DNA of 64,000 bases from Sphingopyxis lindanitolerans (GTDB lineage: Bacteria; Pseudomonadota; Alphaproteobacteria; Sphingomonadales; Sphingomonadaceae), in NCBI RefSeq assembly GCF_002993885.1, contig NZ_CM009578.1, positions 871,251-935,250 of the forward strand. The letters run 5' to 3'. Shown here one piece after another: positions 6,123 to 20,120 of this stretch. The stretch's first letter is position 1. Every line of letters begins with the position of its first letter. The notes under the pieces are model-generated. The model was given only the letters and a program-made list of their open reading frames with translations, did not search any database and was not told where the DNA came from. The position numbers and the translations under genes were made by a program.

Positions 6123-6167
6123 TGGTAGCCGAGGAGGGACTCGAACCCCCGACACGCGGATTATGAT
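6123..6167 (-). repeat. Distal attachment site: 45-nt copy of the 3' end of tRNA-Met
   Basis: Matches 20044-20088 at 44 of 45 positions (6130 is C where the intact tRNA has G at 20051). It covers the anticodon loop through CCA and then diverges at 6168, so it is a tRNA fragment and not a gene. Together with the integrase next to the intact tRNA it marks the far end of an integrated element. Confidence 0.9.
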
Positions 6168-6584: not shown

Positions 6585-9116
6585 CTATCGGCGTGTTCGA
6601 GCGCGCAGCCTTACGGCGGTCCGGATATCGTGGAGGTCCACGCGTTGCGTCACGAGCTGGCGCCGGAATTCTTGGAAGATCGGCTGAGTGCGTTCGGGAT
6701 CTTCGATAGTGACGATCAGCGAGAAAGGTACACCCTCGGCGGGGAATTGCGCCTCGGCGCGCACGAGGCTTTCCACCTGCAATTGCCACTCGGTGCTGCT
6801 GCCGACACCGCCGCCAAAATTGGCGGCGTAGCGCTTGGTTGGCCACCATTTGAGGCCATGAGAGATCAACGCACGCTCTGGCGGCGTCATGCCCGAAGAT
6901 TTCGGCAAGAACGCTTGGGTTATCTGATCATGGAAGCTAGGCAAGCCGTCGGCGCGATCGACCGGCTGACGCTGGCGAAGCTTGGCATCTAGGTTCACGC
7001 GCACGAACTCGGTCCCGAAGGCCTGGTCGATCGGCGCGTCATAGACGAGCGTCATCCGCACTTGACCGCGACACGCGCGCGTTGACGGATCGACCATCGA
7101 AGCAGGCCACGCAAAGGGAAAGCGCAGAATAGCCGGCCGCTTCTCGCCGATGCTCAGGCGACTTTCGAACACGAGCGTAATTGAATGGTCGTCAGTCCCC
7201 AGCATCGACGCCGCATCGCTCGGCTGACCGAAGCCCACAAACTGGCGGGCAACATCTCTGAGAGATCGGTGTTCAAGGCAGGTTGGTATGGTTGCATGGT
7301 GGATGGCAAAAGCCCGCAGGGTGCGCGTATCGAGCTTTTGGCCAGTCATGGCGTCCAGCGTCGCAAGAGTTTTGGCGACAAGTGGAGCAGCGAAGCTAGT
7401 ACCGCGAGTCTCGGCGCAGTTTCCATCCAGCGCGCAGGACACTAGCGCGGTCTTGTCGGGCGAAGCAGAATCGCCCGTCCCGCCGTAATGGGCGAGATCG
7501 GGTTTAACACCGACCCGCAAGCCCGGACCACGGCGCGAATAAGTCGCCGGCGCGCCTTCCACATGGGAACCTCCGGGCGGATTAAGGGCGCCGACCGCGA
7601 GTGCGCGCACACTCTCGCAGGGCATGAAAATCGTATCGGACGCGGTCCGGGAGGCCAGTGCCGTGATCGCCTGGCGAGCTGTGCGCGGCCATGGCGCGCG
7701 CCATTCGGCACCGTTGAGGTTCCCGGCAGAATTGACGATGATTACACCTTGGCGATCCTGAATCTCATCGAGACGGGCGGCGTAGATGCTGTAGAGATTC
7801 TGTTCGACCGGCGAAGTGATGTTCAACGACATATTGAACACCCGAACATCGTGATTGTCGCGCGCCTCAACAATTGCAGCCTCCAGTTCCTCGAGAAAGG
7901 CTTCGAAACCACGCTGTCCGTAAACGTCGAAAAACCGTCCCTTGGGCATCAACGGAATATCGACCAGATCACAGCCGTCGGCCTCACGCCCAATGTCGTT
8001 GCCATTATGACTCTGCGCACCGATTAAAATCCCTGCGACCAGAGTGCCATGCGTCGCGTCACAGGCTTCAGTATCAAGATAGTCGTAGCGATCCTGAATC
8101 CAGTCCGAGAAGTGAGAGCAGATTCCAGTGTCGATCACCCCAACTTTGGGATACGTGCCGGTCGCCACACGCGCAGGGACGGCGAATGTCGTTGACCCAG
8201 GGCTTGCCGGTGCGTGGGAGGGCTGGAGCAGCACCGGAAATCGGATGCGACGAACCAGCGGATGCGCGGCCATTACCTTCAGCACGAGCTCGTGCCGCTC
8301 GACATCGGCGTCGACCTGCGCGACGGGCGGTACCAGCGTCAGCTCGCCGCGAACTGCGCGGCGATCCTCGATCAGCGGCCTCCTGGGGGCGGTGGTCACA
8401 AGCAATTCGATCGAGGGCACACCACCCGGACTGGGCAGTAACGCTGCATACATGCCATCGCCGAGTTGGGCGATATCCTGCTGCAGCGTGTCAAACGACT
8501 GGCGCATACCGAGAATATCGGCGCTGCTGATCACATCCAGTGGTTTCTGTTCGAACAGCTCGACAATGTAGCCGCTGGCGGCAGAAGGGTCGAGCATCGC
8601 ATCAACGGCTGAAGCAGCGGAAAAATCGCGCTTGGCGTCGGGAGCAGCGATCTCGATCGTTTCGATCGCACCGAGTTCCGACCTAGTGCGTGTGACATAA
8701 TGGTAGGGGTTGCCGGTCTTACTCGAAATCCGGGTTTCACCCGCAAGCTCGGCGTCCTCGAACCGCGCCCGCAGTCGGTTAAGGTGAATGCGTGGCGCCC
8801 GAAAGAAGAGCTCGCCGGGCGCACCAGCACCCACGCATGGGAACTGGTCGGCAAGGAACAGCGCCCGGTTCGGCCGATAGGATTTCGCTATGGCTTCCAC
8901 GCGCATACGTACCCGGACATAAGTAACAGGCCCGAAGCGAGAGATGGCGAGAGTTGCGTCGATCTCGTCCAGACGCGCGAGCATCGCCGCCTTATGCAAC
9001 GCGAACGCACGATCGTTCTTCTCAAAAAAGTCCTTGTCAGGACCCGCCCGACCGGGATCGGGCGCACGAAGGAATGAATCGTCGTTCAGGACGATCTGGA
9101 CGGGATTGTTAGGCAT
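6585..9116 (-). CDS. ietS: Subtilisin-like serine protease of an IetAS-type ATPase/protease pair
   Basis: 843 residues. A peptidase S8 domain occupies roughly residues 320-610 with an intact triad: Asp329 (V-I-D-T-G), His356 (T-H-G-T-L-V-A-G), Ser574 (G-T-S-F-A-A-P), and oxyanion Asn466 (N-S-A-G-N). The 320-residue N-terminal region and 230-residue C-terminal region have no recognised motif and no signal peptide, so the enzyme is probably cytoplasmic. ATG 9116 was chosen because AAGGGG lies upstream and it overlaps the ATPase stop by 8 bp, implying coupled translation. Coupled subtilase/AAA ATPase genes are known as IetAS, reported for plasmid stability and incompatibility in Agrobacterium and for phage defence. 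Assignment to that family is by architecture and context. Confidence 0.8.
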   Translation of the reverse strand: MPNNPVQIVLNDDSFLRAPDPGRAGPDKDFFEKNDRAFALHKAAMLARLDEIDATLAISRFGPVTYVRVRMRVEAIAKSYRPNRALFLADQFPCVGAGAPGELFFRAPRIHLNRLRARFEDAELAGETRISSKTGNPYHYVTRTRSELGAIETIEIAAPDAKRDFSAASAVDAMLDPSAASGYIVELFEQKPLDVISSADILGMRQSFDTLQQDIAQLGDGMYAALLPSPGGVPSIELLVTTAPRRPLIEDRRAVRGELTLVPPVAQVDADVERHELVLKVMAAHPLVRRIRFPVLLQPSHAPASPGSTTFAVPARVATGTYPKVGVIDTGICSHFSDWIQDRYDYLDTEACDATHGTLVAGILIGAQSHNGNDIGREADGCDLVDIPLMPKGRFFDVYGQRGFEAFLEELEAAIVEARDNHDVRVFNMSLNITSPVEQNLYSIYAARLDEIQDRQGVIIVNSAGNLNGAEWRAPWPRTARQAITALASRTASDTIFMPCESVRALAVGALNPPGGSHVEGAPATYSRRGPGLRVGVKPDLAHYGGTGDSASPDKTALVSCALDGNCAETRGTSFAAPLVAKTLATLDAMTGQKLDTRTLRAFAIHHATIPTCLEHRSLRDVARQFVGFGQPSDAASMLGTDDHSITLVFESRLSIGEKRPAILRFPFAWPASMVDPSTRACRGQVRMTLVYDAPIDQAFGTEFVRVNLDAKLRQRQPVDRADGLPSFHDQITQAFLPKSSGMTPPERALISHGLKWWPTKRYAANFGGGVGSSTEWQLQVESLVRAEAQFPAEGVPFSLIVTIEDPERTQPIFQEFRRQLVTQRVDLHDIRTAVRLRARTRR

Positions 9117-10326
9117 CGACGACCCCTTCTGATGAGGCGCCCTCAGGCGTCCAGTCCGCAGACCAGCGCGAGATCTTGCTCTGGCTGCAATCAAACATCT
9201 GCGCGAGACTCTCCTGCCGCACACCAAGCTCTGCGTGGAGAATCGCGCCGATGAACTTCGGCTCGTCGACAAGGAAAAGCCGCGCAGGCCCCATGTCGGC
9301 ATCTTCGATCCCGAGCCGCGGCAACAACGCCTTGGTCGCAATGGTGATGGCGCGCGGCGTCACCTCACTGCCCGACAGCGCCAAGCTGCGTCGGAGCGCA
9401 TCGGCGAACGTCTTCAGATCCGAGCCAGACCGGGCGCCGGCGACGTAGCTCAAGGTCTTAATGACATCGTCACCGAGTTCCAGCGAGCTTAGAAACGTGC
9501 GTAGCATTTCTAGCCTGGTCGGAAGATCGGGCTGGCCGATCCGCACATGGTTTTGGAAGCGGCGCCAGACCGCTGGATCGAGCAGGCCCTCATGATTGGT
9601 GATTGCGATCGTCAACCCTTTATCAGCGCGCGCGTCGAGGTTCTGAAGGAGCGTATTCACCACGCGTTTCAATTCGCCCAGTTCATGCGGGTCGTCGCGC
9701 ATTTTTGCGAGTGCATCGAATTCGTCGAGGACCAGCACGCACCTATAGCGGTTGGCAAAATCGAAGAGATTGGCAATGTTGCGGGCGGTCGTGCCCAGGA
9801 ACGAACTCACCAAACCATCGATCCGGGCATTGACGACCGGAAGGTTCAGCCGAGCCGCAAGCGTCAATGCAGCGAGCGTTTTCCCGGTGCCGGGAGGGCC
9901 ATAGAACAGACACGATCGGGAGGGTTCTACACCGAGAAGTTTGAGAGCGTCGGCGCGTTGCCATTCTGAGACTAGCGCATTCATGGCCAATTGGAGCGTT
10001 TCGTCGAAGATCGGCGTGGGCTGTCCCAACGCAGGTGCAAGCAAAATCTCCGCAAGGGGAACACTCGTTTCACGATCAGCCGGGGGGTGTACGTTGGGGG
10101 TCAACTCGTCACCCGTGACCAGCGACCGCGACACTTCTACGTTACTGGGAGCGAAGGACACCTCGCTCGTCACATTTGCCAGCAGCGCGCTGATCGTAGA
10201 GGCATCTCGCTCGTCGCCTGCTTTCGCCAATCGGTCACGTAATCTTTCGACCTGTTTTCTGAATCGCGCATCGCCGCTTTCTAGGCCGACCCGACACAAA
10301 CTTTGGACCGCCGAAAAATGCTCCAT
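9109..10326 (-). CDS. ietA: AAA-family ATPase of an IetAS-type pair, with C-terminal helix-turn-helix
   Basis: 405 residues. The N-terminal 120 residues are helical without known motif. The AAA core runs from about 125 to 330: Walker A G-P-P-G-T-G-K-T (143-150), Walker B V-L-V-L-D-E-F-D (D201/E202), sensor Asn244, and an arginine-finger-like R255-R256 after D-P-A-V-W. Residues 366-389 read like an XRE-type helix-turn-helix (Q-E-S-L-A-Q-M-F-D-C-S-Q-S-K-I-S-R-W), which is not a standard part of AAA proteases' partners. Family knowledge suggests the ATPase controls or unfolds substrates for the protease encoded just downstream. Three phased repeats upstream could be sites for the helix-turn-helix. 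Confidence 0.8.
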   Translation of the reverse strand: MEHFSAVQSLCRVGLESGDARFRKQVERLRDRLAKAGDERDASTISALLANVTSEVSFAPSNVEVSRSLVTGDELTPNVHPPADRETSVPLAEILLAPALGQPTPIFDETLQLAMNALVSEWQRADALKLLGVEPSRSCLFYGPPGTGKTLAALTLAARLNLPVVNARIDGLVSSFLGTTARNIANLFDFANRYRCVLVLDEFDALAKMRDDPHELGELKRVVNTLLQNLDARADKGLTIAITNHEGLLDPAVWRRFQNHVRIGQPDLPTRLEMLRTFLSSLELGDDVIKTLSYVAGARSGSDLKTFADALRRSLALSGSEVTPRAITIATKALLPRLGIEDADMGPARLFLVDEPKFIGAILHAELGVRQESLAQMFDCSQSKISRWSADWTPEGASSEGVVDA

Positions 10327-10349
10327 TACAAAATCCCATTATGAATCCG

Positions 10350-10390
10350 TTATCTGTCAGCGTTATGCCATTTAGATCTATCTTATGCAA
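10350..10390 (-). promoter_or_regulatory. Putative promoter of the ATPase/protease operon
   Basis: On the minus strand TTGCAT (near 10389-10384) and CATAAC (near 10366-10361) are 17 bp apart, about 35 bp before the ATG. The region is the most AT-rich near the operon. It overlaps the TTATGCMA repeats, so a protein bound there could block transcription. Confidence 0.4.
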
Positions 10391-10411
10391 CAATCATCGT
10401 AAATTATGCAA
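10363..10411 (+). repeat. Three phased TTATGCMA direct repeats (candidate operator)
   Basis: TTATGCCA at 10363-10370, TTATGCAA at 10383-10390 and TTATGCAA at 10404-10411; start-to-start spacing 20 and 21 bp, about two helical turns. They lie over the putative promoter of the ATPase gene, whose product carries a C-terminal helix-turn-helix. Autoregulation is an inference. Confidence 0.5.
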
Positions 10412-10801
10412 ATTTGCCGACAGGTCCGTATCTGCTCGGCGAAGCGGGGCTTCCGAGTCAGGGGAGAAAATGCAACGAGCTGATGGATGAAGGGTGCTGA
10501 AGCAGAATCAGACTCCTGGGCGGCATGCCCTTCGGCAATAAGCGGTCTTGGCGGCTGATGAACGGCCGTTAATTCGTCCTACTCTCGAAAAGCCGCCTGA
10601 CTGCAAACGGCCCGACTTTCGTATATGCTGCCGTCCTCTGACCGAAAGGATTGCGGCCGCTCCTGGCAATAACTGTCATTCGCAGCCGTCGCTTCGAACG
10701 GCAATAATGTCTCAGTTGCCGACATCAGCGGCCCGTGCCGGCCCCCAGCGGAAGAGCAATGACCCGAAGTTCAACCCGCCTGTGGCTATAGCGCGGTGTG
10801 C

Positions 10802-11101
10802 TCACGCCGCGATCAGGCTCGGCACCGACAGATCGGCCTCATGCTCGCGGGCCTTGCCGAGTTCATAGCGGGCCTGCATCCGCATCAACGTCTCGGCCTT
10901 CACGCCGAAGGCGTGCTCGAAGCGGATCGCCATGTCGGCCGACAGGGATGCCCGGCCGTTGAGCAGCGCGCTGATCGACTGCCGGCTGACCCCAAAGGCC
11001 TCGGCCAGCGCGTTGATCGAAACCCCGTGGGCCTCGATGATTTCAGTCTTGAGCCACTCCCCTGCGTGGATCGCGAACGACGGATGAATCTTGATGGCCA
11101 T
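10802..11101 (-). CDS. higA: HigA-family antitoxin
   Basis: 99 residues, the usual HigA length. An XRE helix-turn-helix is plain at about residues 29-50 (I-N-A-L-A-E-A-F-G-V-S-R-Q-S-I-S-A-L-L-N). It neutralises the HigB toxin and represses the operon. It follows higB with a 1-bp stop/start overlap (TGATG), in the toxin-first order typical of higBA. On an island such a pair often acts as a stabilising module or phage-response module. Confidence 0.9.
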   Translation of the reverse strand: MAIKIHPSFAIHAGEWLKTEIIEAHGVSINALAEAFGVSRQSISALLNGRASLSADMAIRFEHAFGVKAETLMRMQARYELGKAREHEADLSVPSLIAA

Positions 11102-11388
11102 CAGTGATAATCCTCCAGGTCCAGATCGACGATGGCGCCCTGCTCATTGAGTGAGAAGGTCATGCGCCAGTTGCGGGTCACGGTCATCGCCCATGTTCCG
11201 GCGCGGTCGCCGGTCAGAGGGTGAAGGCCGTAGTTCGGCGGCGTCGAGAGTTCGTCCAGCGTCGCGGCGTCAATGATGAGGGTCACCATCTTGAGCAGCC
11301 GATCGACCAGATCACCGGGCAAGCCCTTCGGTTTGCCGGTTTCGACAAACCGCCGGAGCGCCTTGTGATGGATGCTCTCGATTTCCAC
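11101..11388 (-). CDS. higB: HigB-family toxin (RelE/ParE-like mRNA interferase)
   Basis: 95 residues. Family features: H-H-K-A-L-R-R-F-V-E-T-G-K-P-K-G-L near the start, L-H-P-L-T-G-D-R-A-G-T-W-A in the middle and N-W-R-M-T-F at the core strand, then D-L-D-L-E-D-Y-H at the end, as in plasmid and chromosomal HigB toxins that cleave mRNA on ribosomes. Upstream half-sites at 11403-11436 look like the HigA operator. Confidence 0.9.
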   Translation of the reverse strand: MEIESIHHKALRRFVETGKPKGLPGDLVDRLLKMVTLIIDAATLDELSTPPNYGLHPLTGDRAGTWAMTVTRNWRMTFSLNEQGAIVDLDLEDYH

Positions 11389-12090: not shown

Positions 12091-12837
12091 TCATGACATG
12101 ATATCGTCGAGACCGATCAGACCGACGCGCAGCGCCGCGCACGCCAGTTCGGTGCGACTGCATACGCCGAACATTTGCCGAAGGTCAGCCATATAGGATC
12201 GGACTGTCGAGAGCCTGAGGTCCATGATGAGTGCGATCTGCGCGTCGGTGCGACCGATGACGGCCCAGCGCAGGCATTCGAGACGGCGTGCGCTTACGTG
12301 GGGAACCTCAGTCGCCTCGATCGCGACCGGATAGCCGTGCAGCCGCCGTGCTTCGGCAAAAGCCTCGTCGGCAATCCACGCGGCCGCCCGACACAATTCC
12401 GCTGAAGGCAGTTCGCTTGCGTCCGTTGCGAAGGTGCAGCATCCGGCGGGTTCGCCCGGAACCGAGACAGGGACCGTGAACCCGATACGAAGGCCGTGCC
12501 GAACGGCTTCATCCAAAATCCGGGTCTGCTTCGGATCGGGCTGCAAAGTTCGGCGCATTTCGTTCCAGGTGAAGGGCCGATTGGTCCGCTGTGACGTGAG
12601 CAGCGCGGGATCGTGGCGATAATATTTGCGCGCGACGAAGATGTCGCCCCATTCGTCAAAATTGTGATGGAAGATCAGGCGGCGACCAGGGCGGATGAAC
12701 CAGGAGGCGTGGACGATCGCCAGCCGGTTGAAGCCGAGCTCGCCTGCGGCCGCGAGCGTATGGTCGAAGATTTCGGCGGCGCTGCGCGCGGCGCGCACCT
12801 GCCGTTCGTGATCCCGGATCAGCCGATTGAGCGGCAT
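12091..12837 (-). CDS. LuxR-family quorum-sensing regulator without adjacent synthase
   Basis: 248 residues. The N-terminal autoinducer-binding domain (about 20-160) keeps hallmark ligand-pocket residues: W in D-E-W-G-D, Y in R-K-Y-Y, the D-P pair in H-D-P-A-L, and W in F-T-W-N-E-M. The C-terminal LuxR helix-turn-helix (about 180-240) reads L-R-W-A-V-I-G-R-T-D-A-Q-I-A-L-I-M-D-L with V-R-S-Y-M. No LuxI-type synthase is in the window, so it would sense acyl-homoserine lactones or related signals made elsewhere. Its targets could include neighbouring island genes. Confidence 0.85.
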   Translation of the reverse strand: MPLNRLIRDHERQVRAARSAAEIFDHTLAAAGELGFNRLAIVHASWFIRPGRRLIFHHNFDEWGDIFVARKYYRHDPALLTSQRTNRPFTWNEMRRTLQPDPKQTRILDEAVRHGLRIGFTVPVSVPGEPAGCCTFATDASELPSAELCRAAAWIADEAFAEARRLHGYPVAIEATEVPHVSARRLECLRWAVIGRTDAQIALIMDLRLSTVRSYMADLRQMFGVCSRTELACAALRVGLIGLDDIMS

Positions 12838-13450: not shown

Positions 13451-16400
13451 CTAGAATTTCTTCGCGATGCTGAACCCGATGATGCGCGGGTCGAAGGTGA
13501 AGACGTTGGTGGTCAGGCCCGAGTCATCCGAATTGAGGAACGCATCGGTGATCGGCGTCGAGTTGAAGACGTTCTTCACATAGGCCTCGATCGACAGGTC
13601 GTCGGGACCATCGACGCGCAGCGAGATGTTGAAGTTCGTCCAGTCGCGCAGCCGGTCATAGGGGTTGAGGTTGTAGACCCGCGCCCATGATTTCGCCTGC
13701 CAGTAACCGTCGCCACGAATGGTCGCGCTCCAGTCGCCATCGAACGGGATCGTATATTCCGCGCCGACGTTCACCGTCCAATGCGGGGAGTTGGGAAGTT
13801 CCTTGCCCGAAAGGTCGGTGTAGAAGCCAGCACCGCCATTCAGCTCCGGATAGTTCGCCGGGTCATAGGGCTGACCCGTCTTTGGGTCGCGAAGCCTTAA
13901 TCCGGTCAGAGCAAGAAGACCGCCGCTCCATCCGCCGCACATCTTCCAATATTGCCCAATGCCTGTCTTAAACGAATTGAGCCAGGATTCCGCCATGTGA
14001 ATCGGTATGACACAATTTGAAGGGAGTTGAGGCCAAGGCTTGGTCACGACATAATCGGGATTGCCGAGCGTACGGTTCATCGGATCGATCGACTGTTCGC
14101 CCTTGCCGATCCGCGATCCGAGCCAGCCAACATTGGCGTTGAAGCGCAGGCGATCCACCGGCTCGAACTGCGCGGACAATTCGGCGCCCCACACTTTGGC
14201 GTCGAAATTCTCGTTCACCGCCGTCCGGTCGCGGATCTGCGACACCTGATAGTTGGAATAATCATAATAGAAGGCGCTGGCGTTGAGCGTCAGGCGTCCG
14301 CCCATCAGCACATTCTTGGTGCCGATCTCGAAGGCGTTGACGAATTCCGGTTTGAAGGTCGCGCCATAGTTCACCCCGGTTAGCTGGAGGACGGGAGCGA
14401 ACTTAAAAGCTTCCAAATAATCTCGTGTCGATTCAGGAAATATCCCGGCATCGACCAATTGTTGATTGGTAGGAAATCCAGGTGAAGGTGGATTCATTCC
14501 ACCAGCCTTATATCCACGACTATAGAAGGCATAGATGAGCGTATCATCGGTAAAACTCAGATTCGGCTTCCAGTCGAATCCTGCGCGGCCCGTAAATTCT
14601 CCCCAGCTCAGCTTGATGTCGTCCCCTGCGGGATAGCCCCTGCCTACCAGGCCGCCGGCATAAATGGTCGGCGCCAGAAGCAGTTGGCTGGGAACCGGCG
14701 TAAAAGTCTTCTCATCGCGAGTGAAGCGCAGTCCGCCAGTAAATTTAAGATTTGGATTAATATTGTAATATATCTCTCCAAACGCGGCATAGCTTTTCAA
14801 CTTATAGGGATTCGACGATCGAAAATAGTTGTGTCCCTGCCCATCGATATCTTTAACAGGATTAGAGTCTATATAAGGACAGTATTCTGCTCCTTCAACT
14901 GGCGGAGAAACCCCCAATCCGAAACCAACAGGCTGCAAGACACACCCGTCGCTGCCGCCGCTAAATGGATACATGCTCGCGATAGCGGTAAACATATTGC
15001 TCATGACATAATAATCGTCCTGAGTCCTGAATTTGGTGTAATTCCCTCCCAAGCTGAAATTGAACGGGCCCTCAAAATCCGACTGAAGACGAACTTCCTG
15101 CGCAAACTGCTTTGAATAGGCCGACGAAATATCGAAAACGCCGAGGGTTTTGGAACAACCGATCTGCGGGTCGCAAAAAATCCCGCCTGGGGCGAGGCCT
15201 CGCATCGAGCTCGGCGCCAACAAGCGGCTATTCTCGAACCAGCCCGACGTATCATTGAAAATCGGCAAAGTGTTGAAACGGTTATAGTCCTGAAAACTAT
15301 AGACATCGTCCCAATTCCACGCTGTTTGCGAAGACAGAGTAAGGCCTTCGGCGAGATCGGCGTCCAAATTCAGTTCGAGCACATCCGAACTTGCTCGATA
15401 GATCGGGTCTCGGAACGACGCGATTTCACGCAAATTACGTGATTGTCCCATGCCGCCGTAGGGATCGGTGAGGTTCAGCAAAGTGCCATTAGCTTTGATG
15501 GCAGGATCATAGCCCTGAACGAAAATGATGTTCGTTGCAGCGAGGCCGAATACATAGCCGGTTGCAAGGCCATTTGGCGTATCGAACGCCCCATCGTCAT
15601 ACAGGCTGCCCGCCTTGCAGCCCGTGCTGAACAGCGCCACGCGCAGTTCGTCCGAGCGATCCGGAGATGCGGCACGCACCGGCGTCGTTCCGATCATTTC
15701 GGGCCCATCATCGCGATGACAGAGCTGTTTCCCGGTTCGCGAACGGTTGTCTTTCTCGCGAAACCGCTCCCAGACGAAATTGCCGCGTAGCCAGTCGTTC
15801 TCAAAGCCGAGAGTTGCACGAAGCGAGTAAAGATCGCGGCCGTTGACCCGATTCTTGGTCACCGAATTATAATCGTAACCGTCGCGATCGGTCATCGACC
15901 CGGCGATGCGAAGGCCAAATTGATCGGGAACAATCGGGATGTTGAGCATTCCGGTCATACGACGGCTGTCGTAGTTGCCGACTTCGCCCTTTATGCTGCC
16001 CTCGAATTCCCCAAGCTTCGGCTTGGCGGTGATCAGATTGATCACGCCGCCGGTCGCGTTGCGGCCATAGAGAGTGCCCTGCGGTCCGCGCAGAACCTCC
16101 ATCCGCTCCATGTCGAAGAATTCCTGCTCGAAGAAGCGGTTCTTGATCATGCCGACGTTGTTGTAGCTCACCGCCACGCCGGGATCGCTGGTAGCGGAAA
16201 TCGCCTTGGTGCCGATGCCGCGAATGGAAATATTATAGCCGGTGAAGTTCGATTTGCTGAACGTCAGGTTCGGCACCGCACGCATGATGTCCGCGCCGCT
16301 CTCGATCTTCTGCTCTTCCAGATTTTTCTGCGACAGCGCGGTCATCGCGATCGGCACGTCCTGTATGGACTCAACCCGCTTTTGCGCGGTGACTACAATT

Positions 16401-16765
16401 TCGTTGGCAGCATAACCCGCGTCAGCGGCCTCCGCGCCGTTTCCCACCGGACGCACGAGATAGGCGCCCGAAGGGTCGCGGACCATCTCTGCATTGGCGC
16501 CGTCGAGCAATCGCCGCAGCGCCTCGTCGGCGGCGAGGATGCCCTGCACGCCCGCCGTGCGACGGCCGCGCAGTTCGGCGGCGTTGAACATCACCTCGAT
16601 ATGCGACTGACGTGAGAAGGCGCGCAGCCCCGCAACCAGATCGCCCGCCGGGATCTTGAACTCGGCCTGCCGCGATGAAGTTTCCTGCGCCTGCGCGGCT
16701 GACATGGCCGAAAGCACGCTCGTCGAGCCGAGCAATACCGCGAGCGCAATTTTCCTGATCCGCAT
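13451..16765 (-). CDS. TonB-dependent outer-membrane receptor with N-terminal signalling (STN) domain
   Basis: 1104 residues from ATG 16765, supported by GGGGGAGG just upstream. Signal peptide at 1-26 (ends A-Q-A-Q), then a secretin/TonB short N-terminal domain (about 30-100) that passes the ligand signal to FecR, a TonB-box-like E-I-V-V-T-A, a plug (about 130-260; R-G-I-G-T, V-L-R-G-P-Q-G-T-L-Y-G-R-N-A-T-G-G) and a beta barrel ending in aromatic F (K-K-F). The neighbouring fecR and ECF sigma genes make a cell-surface signalling set for uptake of a siderophore, vitamin or polymer; the ligand is unknown. The stretch 14380-15450 looks AT-richer than the rest of the gene. Confidence 0.9.
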   Translation of the reverse strand: MRIRKIALAVLLGSTSVLSAMSAAQAQETSSRQAEFKIPAGDLVAGLRAFSRQSHIEVMFNAAELRGRRTAGVQGILAADEALRRLLDGANAEMVRDPSGAYLVRPVGNGAEAADAGYAANEIVVTAQKRVESIQDVPIAMTALSQKNLEEQKIESGADIMRAVPNLTFSKSNFTGYNISIRGIGTKAISATSDPGVAVSYNNVGMIKNRFFEQEFFDMERMEVLRGPQGTLYGRNATGGVINLITAKPKLGEFEGSIKGEVGNYDSRRMTGMLNIPIVPDQFGLRIAGSMTDRDGYDYNSVTKNRVNGRDLYSLRATLGFENDWLRGNFVWERFREKDNRSRTGKQLCHRDDGPEMIGTTPVRAASPDRSDELRVALFSTGCKAGSLYDDGAFDTPNGLATGYVFGLAATNIIFVQGYDPAIKANGTLLNLTDPYGGMGQSRNLREIASFRDPIYRASSDVLELNLDADLAEGLTLSSQTAWNWDDVYSFQDYNRFNTLPIFNDTSGWFENSRLLAPSSMRGLAPGGIFCDPQIGCSKTLGVFDISSAYSKQFAQEVRLQSDFEGPFNFSLGGNYTKFRTQDDYYVMSNMFTAIASMYPFSGGSDGCVLQPVGFGLGVSPPVEGAEYCPYIDSNPVKDIDGQGHNYFRSSNPYKLKSYAAFGEIYYNINPNLKFTGGLRFTRDEKTFTPVPSQLLLAPTIYAGGLVGRGYPAGDDIKLSWGEFTGRAGFDWKPNLSFTDDTLIYAFYSRGYKAGGMNPPSPGFPTNQQLVDAGIFPESTRDYLEAFKFAPVLQLTGVNYGATFKPEFVNAFEIGTKNVLMGGRLTLNASAFYYDYSNYQVSQIRDRTAVNENFDAKVWGAELSAQFEPVDRLRFNANVGWLGSRIGKGEQSIDPMNRTLGNPDYVVTKPWPQLPSNCVIPIHMAESWLNSFKTGIGQYWKMCGGWSGGLLALTGLRLRDPKTGQPYDPANYPELNGGAGFYTDLSGKELPNSPHWTVNVGAEYTIPFDGDWSATIRGDGYWQAKSWARVYNLNPYDRLRDWTNFNISLRVDGPDDLSIEAYVKNVFNSTPITDAFLNSDDSGLTTNVFTFDPRIIGFSIAKKF

Positions 16766-16858
16766 ATGTCCTCCCCCATGTTCGCCGCTGAAAAATGCGG
16801 CTGTTATTGAGGAATACGAAGCTGCTTTTCTTTTCCGGTACGCGCGTCGCGCCGACAA

Positions 16859-17839
16859 TCAGATTTTTTTGAGGACCAGCTCTGTCCGGCCGTCCGGCAG
16901 GCTCTCGACGCCGAATCCCTGTTTGAGCAAACGCAGGAAGCCCGCGACATTGGTGGCGCGGAACGATCCGTCGACGATCACGCCCGTTGCGGACGGATCG
17001 ACGACGAGCTTGACCTGGTTGTAGCGATTGAACTCCGCCGCGACCTCGCCCAGCGGTTTGCGCTCGAAGATCAGCAGGCCGTCGCGCCAGCTCATCGCCA
17101 TGTCGATCGCCGCCGCGTCGAGCGGACGGACGACCGGAGTGGCACCCGTTGCGGTGGCGACCTGTCCCGCGGACGCGAAGACGGGCCGCGCTGCCACGCC
17201 GCTCGCGGCGGGCGGGTCGATGCGGACGCGGCCTTCGGTCACGACGACATCGATATCGCCGCCGCGCATCCTGACGGTGAAGGCGGTGCCGACCGCGGTG
17301 ACGCGCCACGCGCCCGCATGGACGACGAACGGGCGCTTGGCGTTCTTCGCGACCTTGAAGAAGGCTTCGCCCTGTTCGAGGTCGAGGCGGCGAACGGCCT
17401 TCGAGTAAGCGACGTCGAGCCGGGAATTGGTGTTGAGATCGACGCGTGATCCATCGGCCAGCGGCAGACGCTGAAAGCCGCCGACAGCGGTGGCATAGCT
17501 CTCGGCGCCGTTGAAGCTCTGGTAGATCGGGACGCTGACCAGCGCGAGCGAGGCCGCAATCGCAGCGGGCCACAGCCAGCGGCGGCGACGCGGCACGGGG
17601 AGATCGTCATCCACCGCGGCGGACGGCGGGGCCACCGCCTCACCATTGCCCAGCGCCGACGCGCGCAGGCGCCCGGCCTTGCGCCACACGGTTTCAAGCC
17701 GGATCACGGCGATGCGGTGCGCGGTTTCCTCGGCGACCCATTGGTCGAAGGCTGTCTGATCGGCGTCGGACCAGGCAGCGCCTTCGCGGCGCACGAGCCA
17801 TTCGGCCGCGGTCTCTTCGATGTCAGCGGCGCTTTTCAT
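16859..17839 (-). CDS. fecR: FecR-family anti-sigma/signal transducer
   Basis: 326 residues from ATG 17839; an in-frame ATG at 17860 is also possible. The cytoplasmic N-terminal DUF4880-type helix bundle (A-D-I-E-E-T-A-A-E-W-L and F-D-Q-W-V-A-E-E-T-A-H) binds the sigma factor. One membrane segment lies at about 79-97 (W-L-W-P-A-A-I-A-A-S-L-A-L-V). The periplasmic FecR domain carries L-A-D-G-S-R-V-D-L-N-T-N-S and a C-terminal STN-like region that meets the receptor. The gene overlaps the sigma gene 3' end, so the two are co-expressed. Confidence 0.9.
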   Translation of the reverse strand: MKSAADIEETAAEWLVRREGAAWSDADQTAFDQWVAEETAHRIAVIRLETVWRKAGRLRASALGNGEAVAPPSAAVDDDLPVPRRRRWLWPAAIAASLALVSVPIYQSFNGAESYATAVGGFQRLPLADGSRVDLNTNSRLDVAYSKAVRRLDLEQGEAFFKVAKNAKRPFVVHAGAWRVTAVGTAFTVRMRGGDIDVVVTEGRVRIDPPAASGVAARPVFASAGQVATATGATPVVRPLDAAAIDMAMSWRDGLLIFERKPLGEVAAEFNRYNQVKLVVDPSATGVIVDGSFRATNVAGFLRLLKQGFGVESLPDGRTELVLKKI

Positions 17840-18389
17840 CGCCGTCCGCCTTTCCATCATCCGGGCGCTTCCCCGACCGGGAAGCGGCGTTCCAGAAGCG
17901 ATCCGTCAATATCCGCATCGCTTTCACCATCTGCTTCTCGACCGTCGCTTCCGACACGCCCATCTTCTCCGCCGTCTCGCGCTGCGATAATTCGTCGATC
18001 TTGCGCAGCACGAACGTCTCGCGACATCGCTCCGGCAGGTCGCCTAGCGCGGCTTCGAGCCGCGCCAGCTCCTGACGACCGCTTATGATGCGGTCGGCCG
18101 TTATGTCATCCGATAATACGTTCGCCGCGTCCAAATCCTCCATCAGGTCGATCGGGACGACGCGGCTTTTCCGCAGCCGGTCGATCAGCAGGTTGCGGGC
18201 GATGGCGAAGAGAAAGAAGCGCGCGACCGGCGGGCGCCGCTTGGCCGCGCCCTGATAGACGCGGACATAGACTTCTTGCCGCAGGTCGGCGACCTCCGAC
18301 GCATCGGGCCACACGCGCCGTAGATAGGCGGTCAGCGCGCCCTCATACGGCAAAATCTGCTCCGCAAACCAATGATCGAGATCGTCCAT
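17823..18389 (-). CDS. ECF RNA polymerase sigma factor (FecI-like)
   Basis: 188 residues from ATG 18389. Region 2 (about 20-85: A-D-L-R-Q-E-V-Y-V-R-V-Y, F-L-F-A-I-A-R-N-L-L-I-D) and region 4 (about 120-170: L-P-E-R-C-R-E-T-F-V-L-R-K-I, S-Q-R-E-T-A-E-K-M-G-V-S) are clear. An upstream in-frame ATG at 18503 would add a low-complexity leader and is less likely. It likely transcribes the receptor gene when the ligand binds the receptor and FecR releases the sigma factor. Confidence 0.9.
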   Translation of the reverse strand: MDDLDHWFAEQILPYEGALTAYLRRVWPDASEVADLRQEVYVRVYQGAAKRRPPVARFFLFAIARNLLIDRLRKSRVVPIDLMEDLDAANVLSDDITADRIISGRQELARLEAALGDLPERCRETFVLRKIDELSQRETAEKMGVSEATVEKQMVKAMRILTDRFWNAASRSGKRPDDGKADGDEKRR

Positions 18390-18513
18390 CGCGCGCCCGA
18401 ATCCTCCCCCGCGCGAGGGTGTGCGGAAATGGGGCGATGTCAAGACGGCGCAGATATGCGCGAGGACGGCGGCAATTTGTGACAGCAATCCAGTGCGTTG
18501 CATGAGGCCCTCC

Positions 18514-19851
18514 CTAGAAGGCGAATTGCAACTGGGGGCTTTGCCGCAACGGCGGCCGGGGTGGAGGAGCGACGGGCGGAGGGCTGACGGGAGCCTGCTC
18601 TTCGGCGTCGGGGGCCGCCGGATAGGGATAGGGCACGCCGAGAAAGCCGGCGACTTTCATTTCTTCGGCGATCTCGACCAGCGACCGCTCCCAGCGGGCG
18701 AAGCCGTCGGCGCGCAGTTCGAGTTCGTCATTCTGGTCGTAGATTGCCTCCAGCCCCTTCTTCTTGTGGTTGAGCATCATCTCCGCGATGTCGCGTTCGA
18801 TCCCGACGCGGCGCGCGTGCGAGCGGAAGGTGCGGCGCAGATCGTGGAAGTGCCACCGCGCCAGCCGCTCGCCGGCGAATTTCTCCATCCGGGCGTGAAC
18901 GCGGTCGCGCGACTTGAACCAGCCGTTGCGCTGCGGGCCGTCGACCCTCGGCGACGGGAAAACCCACTCGTGGTTGGTCTGGGAGAGGCGCTGGCCCCAC
19001 GGCGCCAATGCGACATAATTCGGCTCGCCATTCTTCGACCTCTCGGCCGGAAGCGTCCAGAGGCCATCGACGATTTCGGATGCCGGCAGCTCGAAGAGTT
19101 CAGTCCGCCGCGCGGCGGTGAGCAAGAGCAGGCACAAGGCGCGGCGATAGAGATGGGGTTCCTCGACCAGTGCCCGAAAGAACCAGCCGATCTCCTCGAC
19201 GCTCAGATAGCGCTTGTTGCGGATCGGGCCGGTGGCGAACCAGTTGGAATTGAGCGTCGGGGCGGGATGCGCTTTCAGTCCGATTCCGGCGATATGCCCT
19301 TCGCGCCCTGAGCACCAGCGAAGGAAGCAACTGAGTTCGCCCGCAAGCTTGTTGGCGCGAACCTTCGAGGCTTTCGACTTGGCATAGACCACATCCCAGC
19401 ATTCGTCTTCGGTCAGCAGCACCAGCCGCTTGCGGCCGATCTGCGGCCGGATGTCGCGATCGAAGATCACCTGCTTGTCGTAGAGCGTCCGGGGCTTCAG
19501 AATCTTGCGGTCGCCGCGGTGCATCACCTCCATGTAAAGGAGGTGCGCTTGCTCGACCGTCAGCCCTCGCGCCTTCTTCGACCGGATGCGGGCTCGGGGG
19601 TCCTTGCCGCGTTCGGCGTCCTGGTTGAGTTCCATCGCCCATTCGCGCGCCGCAGCGATGGAAAAGGCCGGGAAATTTCCGAGTTTGAGCCTGACGACGG
19701 TGTCCGTGCCGATCACCCTGCGGCGATAAATCCAGCCCTTCCGGCCGGCCTGATCGACAAGGATAAAGAGCCCGACGATCTCGGGGTCGAAATATTTGCC
19801 TTCGGCAAGCCTGTCCAAGGCGGAAGGGCTTAATTTCAGGTAGTTTTTCAT
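18514..19851 (-). CDS. Tyrosine-recombinase integrase of the island
   Basis: 445 residues. The N-terminal part has the DUF4102-like arm-binding fold of tRNA-targeting phage/island integrases (L-K-L-G-N-F-P-A-F-S-I-A-A-A-R). The catalytic domain shows Arg in T-A-A-R-R-T-E-L-F, H-D-L-R-R-T-F (HxxR), His in L-N-H-K-K-K and Tyr in A-I-Y-D. The C-terminal 45 residues are Pro-rich. It lies 193 bp from the intact tRNA-Met and would catalyse site-specific insertion and excision. Confidence 0.92.
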   Translation of the reverse strand: MKNYLKLSPSALDRLAEGKYFDPEIVGLFILVDQAGRKGWIYRRRVIGTDTVVRLKLGNFPAFSIAAAREWAMELNQDAERGKDPRARIRSKKARGLTVEQAHLLYMEVMHRGDRKILKPRTLYDKQVIFDRDIRPQIGRKRLVLLTEDECWDVVYAKSKASKVRANKLAGELSCFLRWCSGREGHIAGIGLKAHPAPTLNSNWFATGPIRNKRYLSVEEIGWFFRALVEEPHLYRRALCLLLLTAARRTELFELPASEIVDGLWTLPAERSKNGEPNYVALAPWGQRLSQTNHEWVFPSPRVDGPQRNGWFKSRDRVHARMEKFAGERLARWHFHDLRRTFRSHARRVGIERDIAEMMLNHKKKGLEAIYDQNDELELRADGFARWERSLVEIAEEMKVAGFLGVPYPYPAAPDAEEQAPVSPPPVAPPPRPPLRQSPQLQFAF

Positions 19852-20043: not shown

Positions 20044-20120
20044 TGGTAGCGGAGGAGGGACTCGAACCCCCGACACGCGGATTATGATTCCGCTGCTCTA
20101 ACCTGCTGAGCTACTCCGCC
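20044..20120 (-). tRNA. tRNA-Met (anticodon CAT), carries the proximal att site
   Basis: 77 nt with encoded CCA. Acceptor GGCGGAG pairs with CTCCGCT (G-U at the first pair), D-arm GCTC..GAGC, anticodon stem GCGGA/TCCGC with CAT in the loop, and T-arm with GGTTCGAGTCC. Elongator tRNA-Met is most likely; tRNA-Ile(CAU) with lysidine would need exclusion. The part from the anticodon loop to CCA (20044-20088) is duplicated at 6123-6167, so the island insertion left this gene intact. Confidence 0.92.

Follow-up and report, generated by a model that had tools for sequence, protein, structure and literature searches.

A phased repeat array upstream of ietAS, an ATPase-subtilase gene pair on a tRNA-Met-integrated element of Sphingopyxis lindanitolerans

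The window analysed here comprises 64,000 nucleotides of the 4.37-Mb genome of Sphingopyxis lindanitolerans. On its minus strand, and on a contig of 4.15 Mb, lies a gene for an AAA+ ATPase (ietA), which is directly followed by a gene for a subtilisin-like protease (ietS) and preceded by three copies of the hexamer GCATAA. Table 1 gives the positions of these and of further features. An overlap of 8 bp between the two genes, as described in the original prediction, results from the ietA stop codon (9109-9111) and the ietS ATG (9114-9116). The list of open reading frames (ORFs) offers an alternative for ietS with a TTG start (6585-9341). Translation from the ATG at 9116 yields an IetS of 843 residues beginning with MPNNPVQI, and several relatives show the same beginning. 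Of 26 loci compared, 25 have IetS-coding sequence next to ietA, and the exception (L031) is available with a short flank only.

Profile search bore out the earlier assignment to the IetAS type. The PADLOC model for IetS (PDLC02199) matched residues 1-840 of 843 to profile positions 1-825 of 826 (E 1.3e-270, 898 bits), and the model for IetA (PDLC02195) matched residues 1-390 of 405 to positions 1-389 of 395 (E 3.3e-139, 463 bits). PADLOC IetA and IetS models also match all 45 IetA and all 30 IetS proteins that were aligned. Gene order, catalytic residues and near full-length profile matches are thus those of IetAS. The NCBIfam models IteA and IteS gave scores below their equivalog cut-offs (265.3 vs 510 bits and 305.9 vs 900 bits, respectively), which places the window pair outside the core group of NCBI. 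The earlier suggestion of a distinct or unstudied branch is weakly supported: these scores speak in its favour, but PADLOC already holds an IetS model that fits over nearly its full length. As judged from sequence, the pair is a genuine and ordinary member of the IetAS family and not a branch outside it.

Table 1 Positions of features in the window (nucleotides, or residues where indicated)
Feature	Position	Strand	Remarks
ietA	9109..10326	-	405-aa AAA+ ATPase, putative antitoxin/regulator
IetA helix-turn-helix (HTH)-coding part	9142..9219	-	residues 370-395
Operator-like repeat 1, GCATAA	10404..10409	-	-83 relative to ietA
Operator-like repeat 2, GCATAA	10383..10388	-	-62, 21 bp further on
Operator-like repeat 3, GCATAA	10363..10368	-	-42, 20 bp further on
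ietS	6585..9116	-	843-aa subtilase, putative toxin/effector
IetS prodomain-like region	from about residue 162		predicted model
IetS catalytic domain	about residues 310-649		
IetS C-terminal jelly roll	up to about residue 804		resembles KP-43
tRNA-Met (CAT)	20044..20120	-	integration target
Proximal att repeat	20052..20088	+	inside the tRNA-Met gene
Distal att repeat	6131..6167	+	37 bp exact; match to the tRNA 3' end resumes after one mismatch
Tyrosine integrase of the element	18514..19851	-	
HigB	11101..11388	-	separate toxin-antitoxin pair with HigA, together 10802..11388
HigA	10802..11101	-	

IetA consists of a three-helix N-terminus, an AAA core and a C-terminal HTH. Lys149, named earlier as a residue of the ATPase, was confirmed inside the Walker A motif (residues 143-150). 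The Pfam family Phage_CII matches the C-terminus with 22.6 bits (cut-off 21.3), and the structure model places helices at residues 371-378 and 382-390 within a block with a predicted local distance difference test score (pLDDT) of 96. IetA therefore likely ends in a DNA-binding domain, as do antitoxins of type II toxin-antitoxin (TA) systems that act as autorepressors. The C-terminal HTH is present in the window IetA as well as across IetA subclades. Neither this domain nor the promoter array was part of the original prediction.

Together, the C-terminal HTH and the phased array point to binding of IetA to DNA at its own promoter. The window contains the two-copy GCATAA pattern twice, whereas 100 shuffles never produced it; genome-wide, the GCATAA pair is found at the ietA array and at one further site, the latter inside long open frames. 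Read by eye, TTGCAT of repeat 2 could serve as a -35 box and CATAAC of repeat 3 as a -10 box with a spacing of 17 bp, so bound IetA could cover a promoter. On the ietA strand, a sigma-70 scan covering positions 10300-10800 gave no hit at the array.

Upstream regions were compared across the family starting from 95 loci. L060 was dropped because it did not match in the orientation searched, and L111 because it lacked a start; nine loci (L015, L029, L052, L058, L059, L061, L105, L108, L110) were excluded because they were truncated, short or doubtful. The remaining 84 gave 72 non-redundant regions from diverse sources after removal of those sharing 20 bp; the best query was an alphaproteobacterial IetA for 45 of them and the Acidovorax IteA for 27. 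Regions from -460 to -260 (n = 71) and regions of other genes (n = 306) served as controls. Exact 5-mer pairs numbered 1.92 per region at 20 bp and 1.82 at 21 bp, compared to 0.27 on average for the remaining spacings, 0.37 and 0.28 at 20 and 21 bp in the -460 to -260 controls, and 0.32 and 0.34 at the other genes. Against 100 dinucleotide shuffles, z reached 17.1 at 21 bp for the 45 alphaproteobacterial-query regions and 17.3 at 20 bp for the 27 distant ones. A simple test, requiring at least three exact 5-mer pairs at 20, 21, 41 or 42 bp, was passed by 54 of the 72 ietA regions; a chain score of at least 7 was found in 37 of 72, and in 1/71 and 2/200 of the controls (the latter sampled from the 306).

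HTH-bearing and HTH-less proteins were distinguished by eye from their C-terminal ends. A phylum search yielded 30 loci, of which the 29 besides our own were used; together with L059, L108 and L110 these gave 25 non-redundant HTH-less AAA relatives. Only 2 of these 25 pass the simple test (Fisher p 3e-9 against the 54/72). The phased array, recurring and associated with the HTH, is a putative regulatory feature shared by a large part of the IetAS family.

In the clade of the window (IetA identity at least 64%), all eight loci, one of them from Burkholderia, carry at least two GCAT cores at 20-21-bp steps; in the seven relatives (L007-L010, L042, L044, L062) there are two to four. L080, whose best query was the window protein at 38% identity, shows no GCAT core array upstream. 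Other clades show different motifs with this same step: in the L014 clade, 13 of 16 loci have a best hexamer with GAT, all four of L047-L050 have one with GCA, and the best hexamers of L079, L087 and L030 (a metagenome-assembled genome of the Dehalococcoidia) are TTTGAT, TCTTCA and TGTTCT, respectively. Beyond core similarity, the recognition helix and the motif covary modestly (partial Mantel r 0.21; none of 500 permutations as high). The comparison suggests that the motif depends more on the clade of IetA than on the host organism, which bears on the question of whether a host protein, and not IetA, binds the repeats. Such binding is quite unlikely in our view. It would be compatible with the reading of the last repeats as plain promoter boxes (TTGCAT-N17-CATAAC), and the GCA core is common to several clades, making the motif differences between some of them small. 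Yet the best hexamer differs by IetA clade within single host genera, namely Sphingopyxis (GCATAA in the window, ATGCAA in L048), Bradyrhizobium (GCCGAT in L020, GCAAAA in L046) and Paracoccus (CGATAC in L025, CATCAT in L051), while GCATAA is common to the window and Burkholderia L007. The near absence of the array from the HTH-less relatives likewise argues against a host protein.

Centromeres made of short regular repeats exist in other partition systems. The array could accordingly be a centromere-like partition or incompatibility site, with IetA as a DNA-segregating ATPase and the protease as enforcer. We regard this as very improbable, even though, according to the title of the 2009 paper, both stability and incompatibility of the plasmid are raised by a relative on pTiC58. 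The window pair lies on a 4.15-Mb contig, the repeats stand just before ietA and are not enriched at -460 to -260, and the nearest solved relatives of IetA are protein unfoldases and disassemblers. A role of the array in control of the ietAS operon by IetA itself is the reading we follow below.

The protease shows the complete triad of Asp329, His356 and Ser574 that had been claimed for it, and together with the Walker motifs of IetA the catalytic equipment of an IetAS system is intact. These three residues and Asn466, which by analogy with subtilases would be the oxyanion position, are invariant in the 30 aligned IetS proteins. No signal peptide was apparent on inspection by eye, in line with the earlier statement that an export signal is missing. 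Subtilases of the KP-43, SubHal and Tk-SP type, in contrast, are extracellular enzymes. The flanks of the protease core had been said to match no known motif. This holds in part: the C-terminal jelly roll and the prodomain-like region resemble those of known subtilases, but the resemblance is only partial, and the first ~160 residues were barely covered by the fold search.

Papers on relatives suggest a toxin role for IetS and an antitoxin role for IetA. In sgiAT of Salmonella Genomic Island 1 (SGI1) an AAA ATPase antitoxin neutralises a toxic S8 protease (PMC5006074, consulted in part). By its description, sgiAT is likewise island-borne with the ATPase preceding the protease; the target of that island is trmE, whereas the window element targets tRNA-Met. 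The mycoplasma pair TA132/133 is reported to be a functional system with an AAA-ATPase antitoxin encoded upstream of a subtilisin-like toxin, an order that, again by description, matches the window pair (passages of PMC8562856). Direct repeats near the mycoplasma pair are recombination scars according to its authors (PMC8562856, same passages). Alternatively, IetA could be no antitoxin at all and instead act as an unfoldase, delivering captured proteins of phage or host to IetS in the manner in which PAN or FtsH rings supply their proteases, the HTH regulating the operon only. The AAA core is closest to p97 in sequence and to p97, PAN, FtsH, NVL and Vps4 in fold, and NCBI names the pair as anti-phage ATPase and peptidase. 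Nevertheless this alternative appears unlikely, as the ATPase neutralises protease toxicity in both described pairs and IetS resembles free-standing subtilases, not a compartment protease. IetA belongs to the classic clade of AAA+ ATPases and is expected to assemble into a ring.

Taken together, ietAS is probably a TA or defence module carried as cargo of the element, in which IetA restrains IetS and binds the phased operator to control its own operon. The IetS subtilase would stay inside the cell, where its activity would stop growth or kill, and IetA, presumably as a ring, would hold it in check. Through its HTH, IetA would bind the short direct repeats spaced every two DNA turns across the ietAS promoter and control the operon, with repression as the most likely mode. 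If a phage attacks or the element is lost, IetA may be disturbed and the protease freed, and freed IetS would cause abortive infection or post-segregational killing. For IetAS in general, a wider proposal has somewhat less than an even chance in our estimate: an AAA+ antitoxin ring would read two-turn-phased repeats of clade-specific motif through its HTHs, up to six of which could lie on one face of the DNA and wrap the promoter, coupling the ATPase state to toxin transcription, and additional arrays on plasmids or phages would titrate IetA and thereby trigger the toxin.

Several points weigh against repression by IetA at the array. While 18 of the 72 ietA regions fail the simple test, 13 of 71 regions from -460 to -260 and 47 of 306 regions of other genes pass it, and among six HTH-bearing regions counted separately from the 72 (L058 and five later loci) only three pass. 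The covariation of helix and motif is modest and almost disappears (r 0.09) for pairs at core identity below 55%, and related loci are not independent draws. Furthermore, the authors of the sgiAT study suggested positive activation (PMC5006074, in the part consulted). The part consulted of a further study describes the sgiAT promoter as strong and not SOS-regulated in Salmonella, with sgiAT top-expressed among the SGI1 genes tested in the presence of the ATPase (PMC9927553). Such strong expression does not favour tight repression in that system.

GCATAA arrays were also sought in viral contigs. Triple arrays occur in at least 120 stretches, and 80 loci were examined. Open frames longer than 150 codons enclose 80 of the 109 array matches in these loci, and 86 matches have a 21+21 spacing, which equals 7 codons; for these reasons, the viral arrays are mainly coding repeats. 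No IetA relative was found at any of the 80 loci, and the search thus speaks neither for nor against a phage-borne IetA target. In 22 of the 80 loci (e.g. L124, L133, L144, L192) the arrays lie exclusively outside long open frames.

The pair had been placed on a tRNA island, and this was substantiated. An element of 13.96 kb is flanked by a 37-bp exact direct repeat of the 3' part of tRNA-Met, with the integrase beside the tRNA gene and the duplicated 3' part of the tRNA at the far border. Its GC content is 0.601, compared to 0.652 on the left and 0.660 on the right outside. Between the repeats lie the integrase, a FecI/FecR/TonB-receptor set, a LuxR-type regulator, HigBA and ietAS. The FecI-type sigma factor, the FecR anti-sigma factor and a TonB-dependent receptor of 1135 residues (13451-18503) are cargo beside the integrase. 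The LuxR-type autoinducer-binding regulator (12091-12837) has TraR as its best NCBIfam model, below cut-off; no LuxI-type synthase was seen, as five ORFs scanned next to the regulator matched no Pfam family.

HigBA, described before as adjoining ietAS, is a real pair. Eight element proteins (integrase, TonB receptor, FecR, FecI, LuxR, a small ORF, HigA and HigB) were absent, at E 1e-8 and within the stored flanks, beside seven close relatives (L007-L010, L042/L043, L044, L062); the only one found elsewhere was LuxR, with 28-29% identity, in L011. For this reason ietAS seems to move as a cassette, and HigBA was rejected as part of the IetAS system and looks like an incidental neighbour. In 4 of 10 plasmid regions (L044, L045, L049, L053) ietAS has a TIR-domain, abortive-infection, SIR2 or Shedu gene among its neighbours, consistent with a defence context.

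In a search with the joined flanks of the element in 80 genomes of the genus (own included), the tRNA side was matched in 76 at E <1e-27 and weakly in 4. Among the matches listed, none from another genome starts before query position 124, which leaves the left flank unmatched there, so no empty site was found. Second copies of the tRNA-Met 3' end (42-49 bp, at least 94% identity) are present in at least nine of the 80 genomes, own not counted, which makes this tRNA gene look like a recurrent integration hotspot.

Relatives of IetA are scarce nearby. Counting our own genome throughout, they were found in 2 of 60 relatives (E 1e-40), in 2 of 397 genomes of the family (E 1e-100), the top family relative having an IetA 89% identical, and in 8 of 385 genomes of the class (E 1e-60). 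In the phylum, 49 of 398 genomes gave a match (E 1e-60), but the HTH is missing from most of the 29 loci that were read from this search. An HTH-less relative of about 330 residues (L238-L265), mostly without a promoter array, is present in many other Pseudomonadota genomes searched and may be a separate ATPase type.

IetAS appears in many defence surveys, and its mechanism has been described as unknown or incompletely understood (PMC11878078, PMC12755874, both consulted in part). Neither an HTH of IetA nor an operator array is mentioned in the passages of PMC5006074 and PMC8562856 that a search for such terms covered. The window copy itself is ordinary; the array, putatively regulatory, is the part not found reported in the literature searched (among the titles and abstract openings listed). 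The founding 2009 paper on pTiC58 lay outside this search, and the array may therefore be in print; the founding pTiC58 pair itself was absent among the matches listed of the plasmid searches. An antitoxin with a DNA-binding end and a clade-specific operator would provide a simple handle on the regulation of IetAS and perhaps on its triggering. If this holds true, an AAA+ ring that doubles as a regulator reading phased repeats would join the known modes of TA operon control.

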